Shown here piece by piece: positions 32,003 through 40,061 of a stretch of 64,000 bases of DNA (positions are counted from its first letter, which is position 1; each line of letters opens with the position of its first letter). The DNA lies in contig NZ_VAUV01000012.1 in the NCBI RefSeq assembly GCF_005780165.1, positions 1 to 64,000 of the forward strand. The letters are read 5' to 3'. Made by a program: the position numbers and the translations under genes. The stretch comes from Phragmitibacter flavus. Its GTDB lineage: Bacteria > Verrucomicrobiota > Verrucomicrobiia > Verrucomicrobiales > Verrucomicrobiaceae. The notes below the pieces were generated by a model. The model saw nothing but the letters and a program-made list of their open reading frames with translations, had not been told where the DNA came from and did no database searches.

Positions 32003-32521
32003 ATGAAATCACGAATTTACCAAGTGACCGTGGCGGCCGATGCACCGGTGATGAAGTTGAAGGATGCGGCACAAAATGCAGGGTTGCTTCCATTTGATGG
32101 ATCGGAGAAGTCGGATCTGTCGCCCAAGAAGTCTTTCGAGGTCGTGCATGAATCAAGAGTGGTTGACCCGAAGAGCTTTTGGTTTCTGGCTCCCGGCGTG
32201 CTGGTGTATCCCGAGGCGATGATCGGCGAGGATGTCTATGAATCCCCTTATTATAGCTGGGCTTACGATGTTGAACTGCTGTCGATGGTGAGTGAGACCG
32301 ATCATTTTTGGGCGATGAACACCACCCAGGTCTTTCCCCATCCGAACACCGGATATGTGTTTAATTTGAAGTATAACTATCCCTTGTTTCGGTTGGAAGG
32401 CGAAGCGAAGACCGATCTATTTTGTCTTGAGGGGCAGGAATCGACCGGTGATGAGCTGCTGGTGAACTATCGCCAGTATGGGTTGAGCGGTTTGACGTTT
32501 GAGGAGTTCTGGGTGGGGTGA
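32003..32521 (+). CDS. Hypothetical protein
   Basis: A 172-residue ORF starting MKSRIYQVTVAADAPVMKLK. It is rich in aromatic residues (SFWFLAPGVLVYPEAM, DVYESPYYSWAYDVELLSM, YVFNLKYNYPLFRLEGEA) with no signal peptide and no membrane segment. I recognise no family. It stands alone between the PEP-CTERM gene and the accessory region. Codon use resembles its neighbours, which supports coding. Confidence 0.6.
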   Translation: MKSRIYQVTVAADAPVMKLKDAAQNAGLLPFDGSEKSDLSPKKSFEVVHESRVVDPKSFWFLAPGVLVYPEAMIGEDVYESPYYSWAYDVELLSMVSETDHFWAMNTTQVFPHPNTGYVFNLKYNYPLFRLEGEAKTDLFCLEGQESTGDELLVNYRQYGLSGLTFEEFWVG

Positions 32522-33008: not shown

Positions 33009-33165
33009 GGGGATTGCTTGTTGGGGTTGGGGGTGATGGCTAGATCAATGATTTTGATCTCGCCTGTTGGGGTTTGGTTTGAATGCTGATGAACAGCTTG
33101 GCGAAATTCTATTCAAGTGATCCATAAATGCAAAATATTTACTGCGTTTATCGGAAAACAGCTCC

Positions 33166-33417
33166 TTCTTTTTATCAGGAGGAACCTTTTTCTTTGCAGG
33201 AGCAACTTCCTTTCGATCAGAAGGTTCTTTCTGAAGAGTGGATGGTTCCTTCTATTGAGTAGAAGGTGCTTCTAGAAGTCTGGAAAGTTCTGTCTTCTTT
33301 GTGGAAGGAACCTTCCGAAAGATTGGAGATACCTGCTATCAAATGGAGGGTTCCATCTGGAAAGAGGACGGTAATGTCCGTTATAGGGGAGGTTCTGGCT
33401 AGAGAGTGAAAAGGACA
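33166..33417. repeat. Array of twelve degenerate 21-bp repeats
   Basis: The stretch divides exactly into twelve consecutive 21-bp units with no indels. The consensus is TTCT, five variable bases, RTG, then GAAGGTTCY. Position 13 is G in 11 of 12 units and position 20 is C in 11 of 12; the other conserved columns are 3, 16 and 17. The 3' part contains the inverted repeat GAA-GG-TTC. Read on the minus strand in one frame, units 4 to 12 are free of stops and give a seven-residue pattern such as GTIHSSE, STFYSIE, RTFQTSR and GSFHKED; units 1 and 3 contain stops. The flanks (33009-33165 and 33418-33509) show weaker or no periodicity and no gene. Confidence 0.88.
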
Positions 33418-33509: not shown

Positions 33510-36500
33510 TTATCTTACAGGCGGAGAAAAGTGAATTAATAGTATCTCTAATCCCGAAACGCCAAGTCGATTCTGAAGGATTTCTTTGGATTTTTGCCGA
33601 AGAATGGCAAGCATTTGTTCACAGTTGATACGAGGACCTCCATTTAGTGAGTCCCACTTCCGATCTCTATTAAAAAGTGCAAGGACGTAAATTCCGTAGC
33701 GGGCACGGTGATCGCGGAGATAGGAGCCCACCAATTGATCCTCTAAACCATTAATTAAACCTTGAAAGGTCCAATTGTCGGCAATTTTAAGCTCCATTGA
33801 TACAGGAGCGGCGTCTGGAATTACCAGGCGAAGATCTGGACGTAATGATTGGTCAATTTCCCATTCTTGCGGAACGCTGTAGCGTCCTCTGGAACTTTCA
33901 TTGAGTCGTCGTTGAAGCCAACGGCGAAAGCTTGTTTCATTGTCTTCATGGCGAACTTCCTCTCGAGGGCTGTCTTCGCCGAATTCAACCCAGCGTTTAA
34001 TATCGGACAGCCTGCGGATGCCAATTTCAAATAGATCGGAGTCACTTCTAGGCTGCCGCTCATACTCGGTTGCGAATTCACGCATGTCTGTCGTATGCCA
34101 AGGGCTGATATCAGCAAATTTTTGGCGAGACTTATTAAGGAGGTATTTTATGTAGTCTTGTAGATGAGAGAGCAAGGGGTCGGCCAAAAGTGCCTGTAGC
34201 GTTTGACAGACATCGGGATGATCAGTCGCGACCAATCTGTCTAGTAAAGCGCCTCTGAAATCCTGAGCGTCGTCCCTAGTCGTTACATTATAAGCGCCTC
34301 CGCTTGAACGATTGGTATCCTCTTCACGACGAATATATTGGTATACCAGTGGGATGAATCTTAGCATGGCTATTGGATGCACCCATGATGGATTTGCACT
34401 CAGTGGAACATGATCGTCATAGCGGGAGCTAAGACTCGCAGAAACTGAGATCATCAATTCTGTAGGATCGATTGAATTTGGTAAATGTGAATCCAGAGCA
34501 TCTAAAGCATTGATCGCATCAAACTCAAGCCACAAGGCCATCCAAGTGGGAAAGCCAGGTGAAGTGCTGGCAATGGAATGGGCTTTATTTTGTATTAATC
34601 TGGTCAGTTCGTCCTCGGATGATAGAGGTGCTGAAAACAAGATTTTGATGGCATTATACAGTATGAAAAAATTCTGTGGCTCTTTGTCCGTCAATAGCTC
34701 GTAAATTTGGGGTTTCATCAACGCAGTTGCTCGACTGTTCGACCAAGCAAGGTAGTTGATAGCGATATGATAGAGTTCAAGCCCGGTAGAGGTTTGCCAT
34801 TCAGCAGCGATGCATTCAGCTAAAATTGATTGAACTGCCTGAGGCTGTGCTGATGTTAGATCATCAAACCATGGAGGGAATCCATTCATCTCTTGAAGAG
34901 CATATTTGGTGGCTCGTTGGGCGTCAGAGAATGGAAGGTCTGAGAATATTAATCTGCCATCCTGCCAGGCGGCCATGATTCCAGCAAGTCCTGCAATACA
35001 GCCATGTGTTGTGTTCCCGGAAGGATTTTTTTCATGAGGTAAATCTGGAGTATAACGTTTCCAGACTTGAAAGCATCCCTCTTTTGCGGCTTCTACACAT
35101 CGCCGTCCCATTTTTTTCTCAAGGGGCGACCAATCAGTCGGCGTCCATTTATCATGAGTCTCGTGACGGGCATCATCTATAAGGTGAACTAGCCAATTCA
35201 CATATTCGCCAGAACGCAGTTTGTTGCGGTAGCGCCAAAGGTTATATTGTTCACGGATTTTGAGAAACGGTTTTTTTACCTTTTTCAAAGCCATCCTACG
35301 TCGATAAGGTCTGAATTTTGGTTGTATTCGAATGTGCCAGAAGGCTTGTGCTCTGAAAAGTAGATTAGGGCAAAAGCGCTTTAATATCTCTCTGGTATTG
35401 GCGGATGAGTTGGCTAACCGCTTGATTTCTGCGAATTTTGAAGAGGATCGTCCTGTCTGGTGCCACACCTCTAAAGACCACTCAATCGCCCGTTTAAAAT
35501 CTGCGGGGGAAGTTGCTGCTGCTGCCCACTTTAGAAGCCAATCAAGGTCGGCGGCTACTGGCCTGATTCTATCATAATAGATTTGCACGCAGGACAAGTG
35601 AGAGGCTGCCTGCTCGTGATCTTTCTCTAGGCTATCCGCAGCGATACGAAAGTATTGTTCACGCACCTTCGGATGACGCTCAGTGCGTCCCGGTAAAGAG
35701 TCGTCACGTTCGACAGAAGGGCGATGATCACTGATCCGGACAATCACTTCCGCGATGGCAGTAGCTTCTGCTTCGGAAACCGTGGGCCAATCAAGAAGAA
35801 CTTCTGAGATCGCTAGCGCTGTTTTGAGACTCCAGGGTGGTTCGTAATCCTCTTCATTATCGTTATCGTCTACCGGATACCCGAGGAGCCCACGAAGGAG
35901 CGACAAACCATTCTCTTTGTATGTGACGGTAGGGAGGTATTGAGAAAGTGTGTAATCCCACCCAATCACGCCTTGAGTTGAAAACCTCAACCGACTGAAT
36001 GTGCGAAAGAGTTCCTTTGCTCCCCATATGCCTGGAAAAAGAAGTTTGCACAAAGGCATGCAAACTCTTCTGGGGAGAAGTTTGATCTCGTCCGCTGCCG
36101 CAGCTAGAGATCGCAGTTCTGATTCAGTGGCTGTGAGCGTCAGCGCACGAGAGGCGGTTGGGAAGATATCGCCTTTCTCCAGATCCTTAATCGCTATCGT
36201 CAGAACGACGTTTGTGCAGCCAGTTAATTTTCCCGCAATGACAATTTCCAGCGCCAGTTCTTGAATTTCACGGCCATTAGATGGGGTTGTCAGTAGTGTA
36301 TTAATATCCTCTGAGAGAGAGTCGTCGGCAAGTCGTGAAAGAGTTGCCTTTTCATGTTCCCACCAAAGACGTTCACGACCTTCTGCTTTTTGCACTAGAG
36401 CCTTCAACAGTGCACGCTTGTTCTCAGAACTTAATTGTGCTGGGTCACTGTAGCGAAGTAAAATTTCGGGGGCTGTCTCCAAGATGCACCGAAACACAAC

Positions 36501-37760
36501 AATGTTCCATTGATTGACACCTGCGGCAAGCCACGCCGCGAGTGGTGCGAGTGAGGGACGAAGAACTGGTTCAAGGCCACGGGTGTCAAAAAGAAGATCT
36601 TCCAGCACATCCACAGGACAACCCTGTTCCATAAGGTTTTTTAGCCACTTGAAAGCTAAAAATTCTGAGAGCCGTCGATGATGGAAACGAATGTGGCCGT
36701 AGCTCGCGCCATCGAAAATTGGACGTGTGAGAAGTGTTTGGATTTCTTCTTTACGCCAATCTGATGGAAGGCATCTGGACGCGTCAATTGCGTTTAAAGA
36801 AAAATGAATTTCTCCAGGAATTTGGAAGATGAATTTGCGACAAAACAGCGTTGCTGCTGCGAGATATTCAGCACCTGAACGTGCTCTTTCCAAAGAGAGT
36901 AGATCCCAACGGTCTCTATCGGATGCTTTTATGAGTTGGCGATCACATGTGAAATCGAGGATTTCGGTTAGAGTTCCTAAATTCTTCTTTTCTTTCCAAT
37001 AGGCGAGCAGATCGTTTACATCAGCGGGGCGTCTAGCGAACTCCCAAGAGTGAGTTCTTTCTAGCGCTTCGAGGAAGCTTTCCGCATGCGATGCTTGCCG
37101 TGCCGTTACATAAGTTTTTATGCCAGATTCATCTAGCGGCAATAAACTGACAACAAACGGATAGGGTTCTTCGGCTTTGTCCTCTTTTTCAAGATTAGGG
37201 ATCCGCATCCTTACTTCGTGTGCGTCAATCGTGGGAAGCCATTCTGTGATTCTCGAACTGATGACCACATTGGCTCGCAGCATTGCTCGTGCTCCGATGA
37301 GGTCGGTGAATCGATCAATCGCACGATGGAAATCCGCATTTTGCTGTATTTTCGCTTCATCCACCGAGTCGAGGAAGAAAACCGCGCGTGAGATCGAACC
37401 TTTCCATGCAGTCAAACTCGCTGAGTCTTCATTCCGCAATCTGATCTCGCTGCCCAAGGTAGCGAGTTCGTCTAAGCGCATATAAAACCGCGGAGCTTGC
37501 TGTGATCCTAAACTTGCTTGTGCTTGTAGTTCGTAACTTTTTCCACTACCGGGTTCGCCTAATATGACGACTAGGCGTCGCTTCAAGAGCTGTTCCCAGG
37601 TGTATCCATTGGTGAGAATGCCTTGGTCTGGATCAAAAACATAGTTTTTGTAAGCATAGTCCTCTAGGTCGCCATCTTCCCGCACAAGGGCGAATTTCCG
37701 GCCGAGGTCGATATAGTCTACAGGAGCGAGCATGATTGTGATTTTACATAAGGATGACAA
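33510..37760 (-). CDS. Large P-loop NTPase with C-terminal PD-(D/E)XK-like domain (candidate defence protein)
   Basis: 1416 residues. Near the N-terminus is a NACHT/STAND-like ATPase: Walker A GEPGSGKS (68-75) and Walker B VFFLDSVDEA (127-136). A following arginine-bearing strand VVISSRITEW is sensor-like. About 1100 residues of predicted helical repeats follow with no family I recognise. The last ~115 residues hold RPDLRL (Asp1309) and SMELKIAD (Glu1323, Lys1325), then a QLVGSYL helix, as in PD-(D/E)XK nucleases. A TTG at 37758-37760 has GGAGG four bases upstream; an ATG at 37731-37733 (MLAPVDYIDLG) is an alternative start. The gene is visibly richer in A+T than its neighbours and stands alone, which fits horizontal transfer. 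The defence role is inference. Confidence 0.8.
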   Translation of the reverse strand: MSSLCKITIMLAPVDYIDLGRKFALVREDGDLEDYAYKNYVFDPDQGILTNGYTWEQLLKRRLVVILGEPGSGKSYELQAQASLGSQQAPRFYMRLDELATLGSEIRLRNEDSASLTAWKGSISRAVFFLDSVDEAKIQQNADFHRAIDRFTDLIGARAMLRANVVISSRITEWLPTIDAHEVRMRIPNLEKEDKAEEPYPFVVSLLPLDESGIKTYVTARQASHAESFLEALERTHSWEFARRPADVNDLLAYWKEKKNLGTLTEILDFTCDRQLIKASDRDRWDLLSLERARSGAEYLAAATLFCRKFIFQIPGEIHFSLNAIDASRCLPSDWRKEEIQTLLTRPIFDGASYGHIRFHHRRLSEFLAFKWLKNLMEQGCPVDVLEDLLFDTRGLEPVLRPSLAPLAAWLAAGVNQWNIVVFRCILETAPEILLRYSDPAQLSSENKRALLKALVQKAEGRERLWWEHEKATLSRLADDSLSEDINTLLTTPSNGREIQELALEIVIAGKLTGCTNVVLTIAIKDLEKGDIFPTASRALTLTATESELRSLAAAADEIKLLPRRVCMPLCKLLFPGIWGAKELFRTFSRLRFSTQGVIGWDYTLSQYLPTVTYKENGLSLLRGLLGYPVDDNDNEEDYEPPWSLKTALAISEVLLDWPTVSEAEATAIAEVIVRISDHRPSVERDDSLPGRTERHPKVREQYFRIAADSLEKDHEQAASHLSCVQIYYDRIRPVAADLDWLLKWAAAATSPADFKRAIEWSLEVWHQTGRSSSKFAEIKRLANSSANTREILKRFCPNLLFRAQAFWHIRIQPKFRPYRRRMALKKVKKPFLKIREQYNLWRYRNKLRSGEYVNWLVHLIDDARHETHDKWTPTDWSPLEKKMGRRCVEAAKEGCFQVWKRYTPDLPHEKNPSGNTTHGCIAGLAGIMAAWQDGRLIFSDLPFSDAQRATKYALQEMNGFPPWFDDLTSAQPQAVQSILAECIAAEWQTSTGLELYHIAINYLAWSNSRATALMKPQIYELLTDKEPQNFFILYNAIKILFSAPLSSEDELTRLIQNKAHSIASTSPGFPTWMALWLEFDAINALDALDSHLPNSIDPTELMISVSASLSSRYDDHVPLSANPSWVHPIAMLRFIPLVYQYIRREEDTNRSSGGAYNVTTRDDAQDFRGALLDRLVATDHPDVCQTLQALLADPLLSHLQDYIKYLLNKSRQKFADISPWHTTDMREFATEYERQPRSDSDLFEIGIRRLSDIKRWVEFGEDSPREEVRHEDNETSFRRWLQRRLNESSRGRYSVPQEWEIDQSLRPDLRLVIPDAAPVSMELKIADNWTFQGLINGLEDQLVGSYLRDHRARYGIYVLALFNRDRKWDSLNGGPRINCEQMLAILRQKSKEILQNRLGVSGLEILLIHFSPPVR

Positions 37761-37867: not shown

Positions 37868-38315
37868 CTAGTGGTCGTTTGATGACACACGGATAAAGTC
37901 CGCGTTTCTTAGAGATTTGCCCCCTGCTCTTGAGCACTTGCATGAAAGCTTCTTGGGGAGGTTGAGTTTGCCGATACTCTTCATGCGCTTTTTGCCTTCT
38001 TTCTGCTTCGCGAGGAGCTTGCGCTTACGACTGATACTGATGTCGCCGCCGTAGCATTTGGCGGTGACGTCTTTTCTCAGGACGCTGATGCGTCCGCTGG
38101 CGATGGATGATCTTGCCACCTATGGCGGCTTGGATGGAGACGACGAAGAGTTGTTGGGGGATGACTTCCTTGAGTTTGGCGGCGAGGGCTCGACCGCAGG
38201 ATTCGGCTTTGCTGCGGTGGACGATGCGGGCGAAGGCGTCGACGGATTCGCCCGCGATTAGCATTTCCGTTTTGACGAGGTCGGCGGGATCGCAAACACC
38301 ATGGCGAGCGACCAT
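37868..38315 (-). pseudogene. lepA: lepA (elongation factor 4) 3' fragment
   Basis: The minus strand reads [40 protein letters not shown] and QAAIGGKII in one frame. A second frame then gives [20 protein letters not shown] and [20 protein letters not shown], and a third EAFMQVLKS. These are consecutive C-terminal blocks of EF4/LepA, so at least two frameshifts are present, plus a six-base duplication (DISIS for DIS). The GTPase and central domains are missing. The fragment cannot make EF4; a functional copy is presumably elsewhere. It lies just upstream of the NTPase gene and may mark a junction of the accessory region. Confidence 0.85.
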
Positions 38316-38372: not shown

Positions 38373-38407
38373 AAAGGCTAAAGGCTAAAGGCTAAAGGCT
38401 AAAGGCT
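38373..38407. repeat. Heptamer tandem array (AAAGGCT)
   Basis: Five perfect copies of AAAGGCT, plus a partial sixth (AAAG), end a few bases before the stop codon of the next gene at 38416. Confidence 0.9.
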
Positions 38408-38415
38408 AAAGTGAT

Positions 38416-39755: not shown

Positions 39756-39811
39756 GTTCTTGGTTCTTGGTTCTTGGTTCTTGGTTCTTGGTTCTTGGTT
39801 CTTGGTTCTTG
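39756..39811. repeat. Heptamer tandem array (GTTCTTG)
   Basis: Eight perfect copies of GTTCTTG. It lies ten bases before a second array of a different heptamer and upstream of the TIM-barrel gene. The interval 39878-39986 between the arrays and the tRNA holds no feature I recognise. Confidence 0.96.
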
Positions 39812-39821
39812 GTTTGGCAGT

Positions 39822-39877
39822 CGGAAGGCGGAAGGCGGAAGGCGGAAGGCGGAAGGCGGAAGGCGGAAGGCGGAAGG
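39822..39877. repeat. Heptamer tandem array (CGGAAGG)
   Basis: Eight perfect copies of CGGAAGG, the same number and total length (56 bp) as the neighbouring GTTCTTG array. Confidence 0.96.
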
Positions 39878-39986
39878 AGGAGAGCCTCCTCACGTCGGCT
39901 GCTACGTGGGCTCGGGCGCGGAAAGGTGTGTTTCATGTTTGACAACGACGGGCTTCTGGGTAGTCTGCCCATCCTCAATCGCACAT

Positions 39987-40061
39987 GGCAGGGTAGCTCA
40001 GCGGTAGAGCAGGGGACTCATAAGCCCTTGGTCGGGAGTTCGATTCTCCCCTCTGCCACCA
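39987..40061 (+). tRNA. tRNA with CAT anticodon (elongator Met or Ile2)
   Basis: The acceptor stem GGCAGGG pairs with CTCTGCC (one G-T pair), followed by ACCA, so the CCA end is encoded. The D arm is AGCTCAGCGGTAGAGC. The anticodon CAT is at 40019-40021 within CTCATAA. The T arm is GGGAG-TTCGATT-CTCCC. The anticodon stem has a G-T pair and an A-G mismatch next to the loop. G at position 1 pairing with C72 argues against initiator tRNA. CAT could also be read as Ile after lysidine modification. Confidence 0.93.

Follow-up and report, generated by a model that had tools for sequence, protein, structure and literature searches.

Can a STAND ATPase that carries its effector at the C-terminus, with its NACHT module first, be an antiphage protein? 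The question is raised by a hyoA-like gene of Phragmitibacter flavus on the minus strand of contig NZ_VAUV01000012.1 (assembly GCF_005780165.1), of which positions 1 to 64,000 were analysed and are referred to here as the window. An earlier note on this DNA had proposed an antiviral function for a frame of 1416 codons at 33510–37760, with a STAND/NACHT-like P-loop ATPase at the N-terminus of the product and a PD-(D/E)XK-like domain at its C-terminus, and we confirm that this frame is open throughout from a TTG codon. We consider it probable that the gene was acquired horizontally and encodes a HyoA-family antiphage STAND system consisting of one protein, in which an NLR-like infection sensor is joined to a C-terminal effector and the outcome is abortive infection. 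This view draws on the predicted NACHT fold, the conservation of the motifs, the domain order, the replacement of the C-terminal domain in some relatives, and a patchy occurrence.

The window protein matches the NCBIfam equivalog model NF058534 (NACHT domain-containing antiphage protein HyoA) with 1246.4 bits against a curated cut-off of 1200 (1245.1 bits for the gene in the genome search), and the match is full length, with residues 19–1413 aligning to positions 1–1429 of the 1430 in the model. It has the same NACHT start and nuclease-like end as HyoA, and its membership of this already named antiphage family is supported by the profile match. The second NCBIfam match is to EruA (NF058535), over residues 57–1401, with 183.6 bits against a cut-off of 1000; the window protein is a distant full-length relative of EruA, and the score rules EruA out as a better name. 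All 18 members of an alignment that includes the window protein (alignment A1) match the HyoA model and 15 of the 18 match EruA (E≤0.001). The EruA that the literature search turned up is an unrelated Escherichia coli regulator, different from the EruA of NF058535. Because the family is already named, the novelty of the window gene is limited; it is itself an ordinary outcome, a member of a named family, and the parts of interest are the exchangeable effector and the Fic-paired variant described below. The antiviral function proposed earlier is backed by the family name, and in part by the gene neighbourhoods of relatives.

The start of the gene is unsettled between two candidate codons, a TTG with GGAGG directly upstream of it and an ATG nine codons further downstream, which is where homologues start aligning. 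Residues of the window protein are numbered from the TTG, and in this numbering the Lys74 and Glu1323 singled out by the earlier note are correctly placed.

No domain precedes the NACHT module in the window protein, and homologues begin there. A model of the body (residues 10–1209; built with five sequences; mean predicted local distance difference test score, pLDDT, of 69.9) has an alpha/beta N-terminal part followed by nearly all helices. In a VIA comparison, the best scores were obtained over approximately model residues 1–480 (protein residues 10–490), with NLRP3 (Z 15.6), NLRC4 (15.2) and NOD2 (14.9), and the 32 best rows (Z 10.2–15.6) comprise 29 NLR entries by title and three oocyte cytoplasmic-lattice entries. 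The model thus supports a NACHT fold for residues 10–490, with kinship to the human NLRs. Foldseek ranked the STAND antiphage protein Avs4 (PDB 8dgf; E 4e-7) first for the body model, but with poor superposition (TM-score 0.17). For the later part of the model the matches are statistically weaker and are to proteins built of helical repeats, importins and condensin subunits among them. Conservation is highest in the NACHT part and, the first 41 residues aside, lowest at residues 521–920 and 1021–1120. The N-terminal ATPase of the earlier note is therefore borne out by motifs, NCBIfam and predicted fold, and of the searches it had suggested for NACHT and AVAST proteins the fold search recovered an NLR-type fold, whereas the Pfam NACHT match stayed under threshold (E 0.0039; 17.5 bits against a gathering score of 26.7, which is a detection threshold rather than a structural feature) and PADLOC matched no Avs model to the window protein, giving at E≤1 only mad8 (0.0053) and PDC-S68 (0.019).

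At the C-terminus, E1299, D1309, E1323, K1325, Q1342 and Y1347 are invariant across the 19 proteins of alignment A3. Conservation was counted by aligning 39 nuclease matches from all loci, 27 of them HyoA-type and 12 distant or partial. The set of E, D, E, K and Q is kept in all 27 HyoA-type domains, eight of which lie outside the 19 rows of A3; among the 12 others, four keep all five residues (L014, L041, L013 and L044), six differ in at least one, and two (L031 and L018) span only part of the five motif columns. The D-x13-E-x-K spacing of the window protein fits the PD-(D/E)XK motif, and the motif supports the assignment of this domain as a putative nuclease. A model of the domain has a helix, strands carrying the D and ExK residues, and then a helix, strand, helix and strand, an order that we take to be the one expected of the PD-(D/E)XK fold, although at its low confidence the model is only suggestive of that fold. 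The VIA rows covering the domain include PaqCI (Z 5.9), a Pyrococcus abyssi repair endonuclease (5.2), HamA (5.1), Avs4 (4.5), EcoT38I and SfsA (Z 4.5–5.9 overall), all of which we assume to have the PD-(D/E)XK fold, with the qualification that these scores are all below 8 and are equalled or exceeded by unrelated folds. Among the 19 nuclease rows Pfam reported PDDEXK_3 once (E 0.055), and comparison of the nuclease profile with the sequences of solved structures gave a single row at chance level. The PD-(D/E)XK-like C-terminus claimed earlier thus stands as to its motif, while the fold search returned only low scores on a model with a pLDDT of 52.

The arrangement differs from the one described for STAND immune proteins. 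In the available text of PMC12169576, bNACHT proteins, like all STAND NTPases, have an N-terminal effector and a C-terminal sensor; in bNACHT25 and bNACHT32 defence depends on a PD-(D/E)XK DNase at the N-terminus, and DNA is degraded upon activation. The window protein shares with these two a NACHT module and a PD-(D/E)XK(-like) domain, but it departs from the tripartite bNACHT order, with NACHT first and the nuclease-like domain at the C-terminal rather than the N-terminal end. Avs4 likewise has its weak nuclease alignment at the N-terminus (residues 2–159 of chain 8dgf_A), unlike the domain here. A C-terminal effector is not without precedent in STAND proteins, as GT4 effector domains are reported to lie frequently on the C-terminal side of STAND NTPases, those of the NACHT type among them (PMC8195603, in the portion available). 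The GT4-STAND proteins share the position of the effector with the window protein but have a different effector, and that portion describes no series of PD-(D/E)XK, phosphorylase, transmembrane and Fic effectors on one body. The DS-8 system of DefensePredictor also pairs NACHT with an enzyme as effector and depends on both for defence; the enzyme in that case is a metallophosphatase (PMC13092281, from the accessible text). The system of PMC13236601, which is CARD-NLR-like in the accessible part of that paper, was set aside as not belonging to the HyoA family.

The C-terminal domain is not constant among relatives. A maximum-likelihood tree was built from the bodies alone, using 28 full or nearly full bodies and leaving out the split or partial bodies L050, L094, L095, L096, L098, L018 and L082 and the distant EruA-like rows. 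The nuclease-like domain is present in 24 of these 28. L002, a protein from a Gemmataceae metagenome-assembled genome, has a PNP_UDP_1 nucleoside-phosphorylase domain at residues 1277–1469 (E 8e-15), and L062, from an IMG/VR contig, has a hydrophobic segment at its C-terminus, where hydropathy averages 2.84 over 19 residues (maximum in the window protein, 1.79). On two Rhizobium plasmids (L090 and L091) the protein stops at the end of the body, and an upstream Fic gene overlaps the body gene by four bases, the Fic gene and tail-less HyoA body together spanning L090:4712–9615 and L091:3727–8612. The products of both Fic genes are recognised by the Pfam model Fic (E 1.7e-14 and 1.4e-14), and the HPFxDGNGR motif is intact in them (HPFLDGNGRVAR). 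These two loci are near-identical and were counted as one event, and L095, which lacks a nuclease match and whose end is uncertain, was not counted as an effector change. The window protein forms a clade with L002 and L006 (100/100 support) in which only L002 is without the nuclease, and the hydrophobic-segment and Fic rows fall in another clade of 10, seven of which have it. At least three changes of C-terminal label are forced by well-supported (starred) branches of the tree, which has long branches and gave composition-bias warnings. A nuclease-bearing ancestor with later replacements would be the simplest account.

These sequences suggest that the C-terminal domain occupies a slot in which effectors can be exchanged, which is new as far as could be seen, and the changes on the tree strengthen the reversed order, with the effector at the C-terminus, that the earlier note had described. 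We lean, by a little, towards a broader proposal in which the HyoA body serves as an inverted NLR of a general kind, consisting of NACHT, a helical sensor, and a C-terminal slot that has changed at least three times (nuclease, phosphorylase, membrane segment) or whose effector has moved to an overlapping Fic gene, presumably encoding an AMPylase. On that view one unchanging sensing body would be coupled to attacks of unrelated chemistry, and the NACHT-Fic pair would, if this is true, be a possible two-gene antiphage system of an undescribed type; a search of the open-licence literature for NACHT together with a Fic domain and phage found nothing. A family with the opposite order and at least three effector exchanges on one body also amounts to a natural chimera set, with which one may ask whether effector choice is set by geometry or merely by being brought together. 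At L018 (the same place in L138:6348–6920) there is a 217-codon stop-to-stop frame, of 191 codons from the first start codon, in which the first ~108 positions of the body are followed directly by the final third of the nuclease-like domain; this would be either a mini-gene or a hyoA gene that has lost its interior in frame.

A plausible mechanism for the window protein is that in the resting state ADP is bound to NACHT, while the helical superhelix prevents the monomer from assembling. Upon infection the helical stretch may recognise something made by the phage, or a host process that the phage upsets, and NTP exchange would lead to oligomerisation through NACHT. The oligomer would bring the C-terminal PD-(D/E)XK domains together and so switch on DNA cleavage, which would kill or stall the infected cell. 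Ligand-triggered NACHT assembly leading to DNA damage is proposed because of the analogy with bNACHT25 and bNACHT32, and more generally it is from other STAND proteins that we infer the nucleotide switch, the formation of oligomers, a sensing role for the helical part, the DNA target and the abortive outcome.

The occurrence of the family is sparse. The NF058534 model is matched over positions 1–1429 in three of 57 relatives (the P. flavus genome included) and partially in five more; in the phylum as a whole 24 of 387 genomes have any match to the HyoA model, two of them above the cut-off, and in the phylum of L002 the body is matched in nine of 294 genomes (E≤1e-10). By tblastn, relatives are present in 60 of 72,556 plasmid records and in two of 50,697 phage records, both of the latter being Acinetobacter contigs. 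A Klebsiella copy recurs on the chromosome in three of 5426 E. coli genomes, and the one E. coli copy inspected is surrounded by SIR2, toxin-antitoxin and hsdR genes. The window gene itself has a G+C content of 47.1%, a value below that of all 1008 further stretches of equal length taken from the window (minimum 53.4%). Next to it is a scrap of lepA; the segment at 37926–38288 has 87% identity to the lepA locus that P. flavus carries on a different contig (C5:339671–340024). The low G+C and the lepA scrap together suggest that the gene was acquired by horizontal transfer. The gene stands alone, and that it does so, is A+T-rich relative to its surroundings and is flanked by a pseudogene were all correctly noticed before, the pseudogene being the lepA 3' fragment. 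In a region from the phylum of L002 (L137:10216–14220) a hyoA relative lies beside genes for HsdM, a SoFic-like Fic protein and a PLD-like protein.

Several observations weigh against the antiphage reading. The window protein is only 46 bits above the NF058534 cut-off (1246 against 1200); L006, its nearest same-family relative in the tree, is under that cut-off (1018.5 bits) and has Arg replacing Lys in its Walker A motif (GEPGSGRS), with Walker B and the nuclease motif intact. No publication using the name HyoA for this protein turned up in the literature search. The model of the nuclease domain is poor (pLDDT 52.4, with only three rows usable), Foldseek found no match to it at E≤0.001, and a profile comparison with PDDEXK_3 aligned the D, ExK and Q residues but with a probability of only 5.4 (E 0.0072, one comparison). 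No defence or toxin-antitoxin gene was recognised near the window gene. Regions with flanks of 5–12 kb were taken at 25 loci, of which two were without annotation, and 12 of the remaining 23 neighbourhoods are without a named defence or toxin-antitoxin gene. The other 11, which count in favour of defence, contain SIR2, TIR, DUF262, HEPN or HepT, restriction endonuclease or toxin-antitoxin genes, a count that derives from a word list of our own choosing and is a description without a background rate rather than an enrichment, and one element accounts for two of the 11. The contexts of relatives are at any rate not housekeeping ones throughout, contrary to what the earlier note would have taken as telling against defence.

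The low fold-search scores from the poor model, the existence of relatives without the C-terminal domain, and several distant copies that seem to be without one or more of E, E and K (in an alignment of low certainty) would suit a C-terminal domain that is a sensor, binding DNA or another ligand, in which the acidic residues bind ligand or metal and the effect is exerted through NACHT assembly or a partner. This is unlikely, in that the five-residue motif is complete in every HyoA-type copy and the replacements (a phosphorylase domain, a hydrophobic segment, an adjacent Fic gene) are effector types. The same replacements bear on restriction-like action, in which the protein itself recognises and cuts invading DNA and the host survives, as could be expected from a nuclease-like domain in a family with relatives on plasmids and beside restriction-modification genes. 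However, the phosphorylase of L002, the hydrophobic segment of L062 and the Fic proteins of L090 and L091 are not DNA-cutting kinds, yet the body is conserved, and it is therefore likelier that an infection signal is sensed than a cleavage site; we regard restriction-like action as quite unlikely. Least credible of all is a protein of the NACHT family that has no part in defence and acts as a regulator or scaffold in housekeeping or development. The window gene lies amid ordinary genes, as do by eye two other Verrucomicrobiota copies (L135 and L136), whose neighbours differ from those in the window, and the 12 neighbourhoods without a named defence gene would also be in keeping with such a role; against it are the rarity of whole-model matches among the 57 relatives, the low G+C and adjoining lepA scrap, the plasmid-borne relatives, the exchanged C-terminal domain and the antiphage equivalog assignment.

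Coordinates of the hyoA-like gene, its parts and flanking features in the window.
Feature	Position	Strand	Details
hyoA-like gene	33510..37760	-	open frame, 1416 codons from TTG, or 1407 from ATG at 37733
NACHT module, including HHRR..EFLA motif (from residue 357)	36501..37601	-	~residues 54-420
Walker A GEPGSGKS	37536..37559	-	residues 68-75, K74; Lys in 20/21 aligned bodies, Arg in L006
Walker B VFFLDSVDE	37356..37382	-	residues 127-135; D131, D134, E135 invariant in 21/21 bodies
All-helical, HEAT-like stretch, presumed sensor	34191..36500	-	~residues 421-1190; predicted secondary structure
C-terminal PD-(D/E)XK-like domain	33513..34094	-	~residues 1223-1416; alignment A3, 19 rows
Presumed active-site stretch E1299-x9-D1309-x13-E1323-x-K1325-x16-Q1342	33735..33866	-	residue conservation
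lepA 3' fragment (pseudogene)	37871..38119	-	Pfam LepA_C E 3.6e-19
Degenerate repeat, four 20-mers, spacing 21, 21, 42	33163..33266	.	one place in genome at this sensitivity

The flanking repeat array that had also been described is partly borne out, with two candidates present. One is the set of four degenerate 20-mers, whose units are rich in GAAGGTTCC; it is absent from the output of Tandem Repeats Finder at the default score. The other is an AAAGGCT array (x5.6) at 38373–38411. A multi-gene system occupying a low-G+C island was considered and set aside, there being no Pfam match for the ORFs at 32003 and 32655, as was the tRNA-Met at 39987 as an attachment site, which is 2 kb distant. Just before this tRNA gene, at 39756–39881, are two perfect or nearly perfect tandem arrays with 7-nucleotide units, similar in this to the AAAGGCT array: GTTCTTG (x8.4) and CGGAAGG (x8.6).

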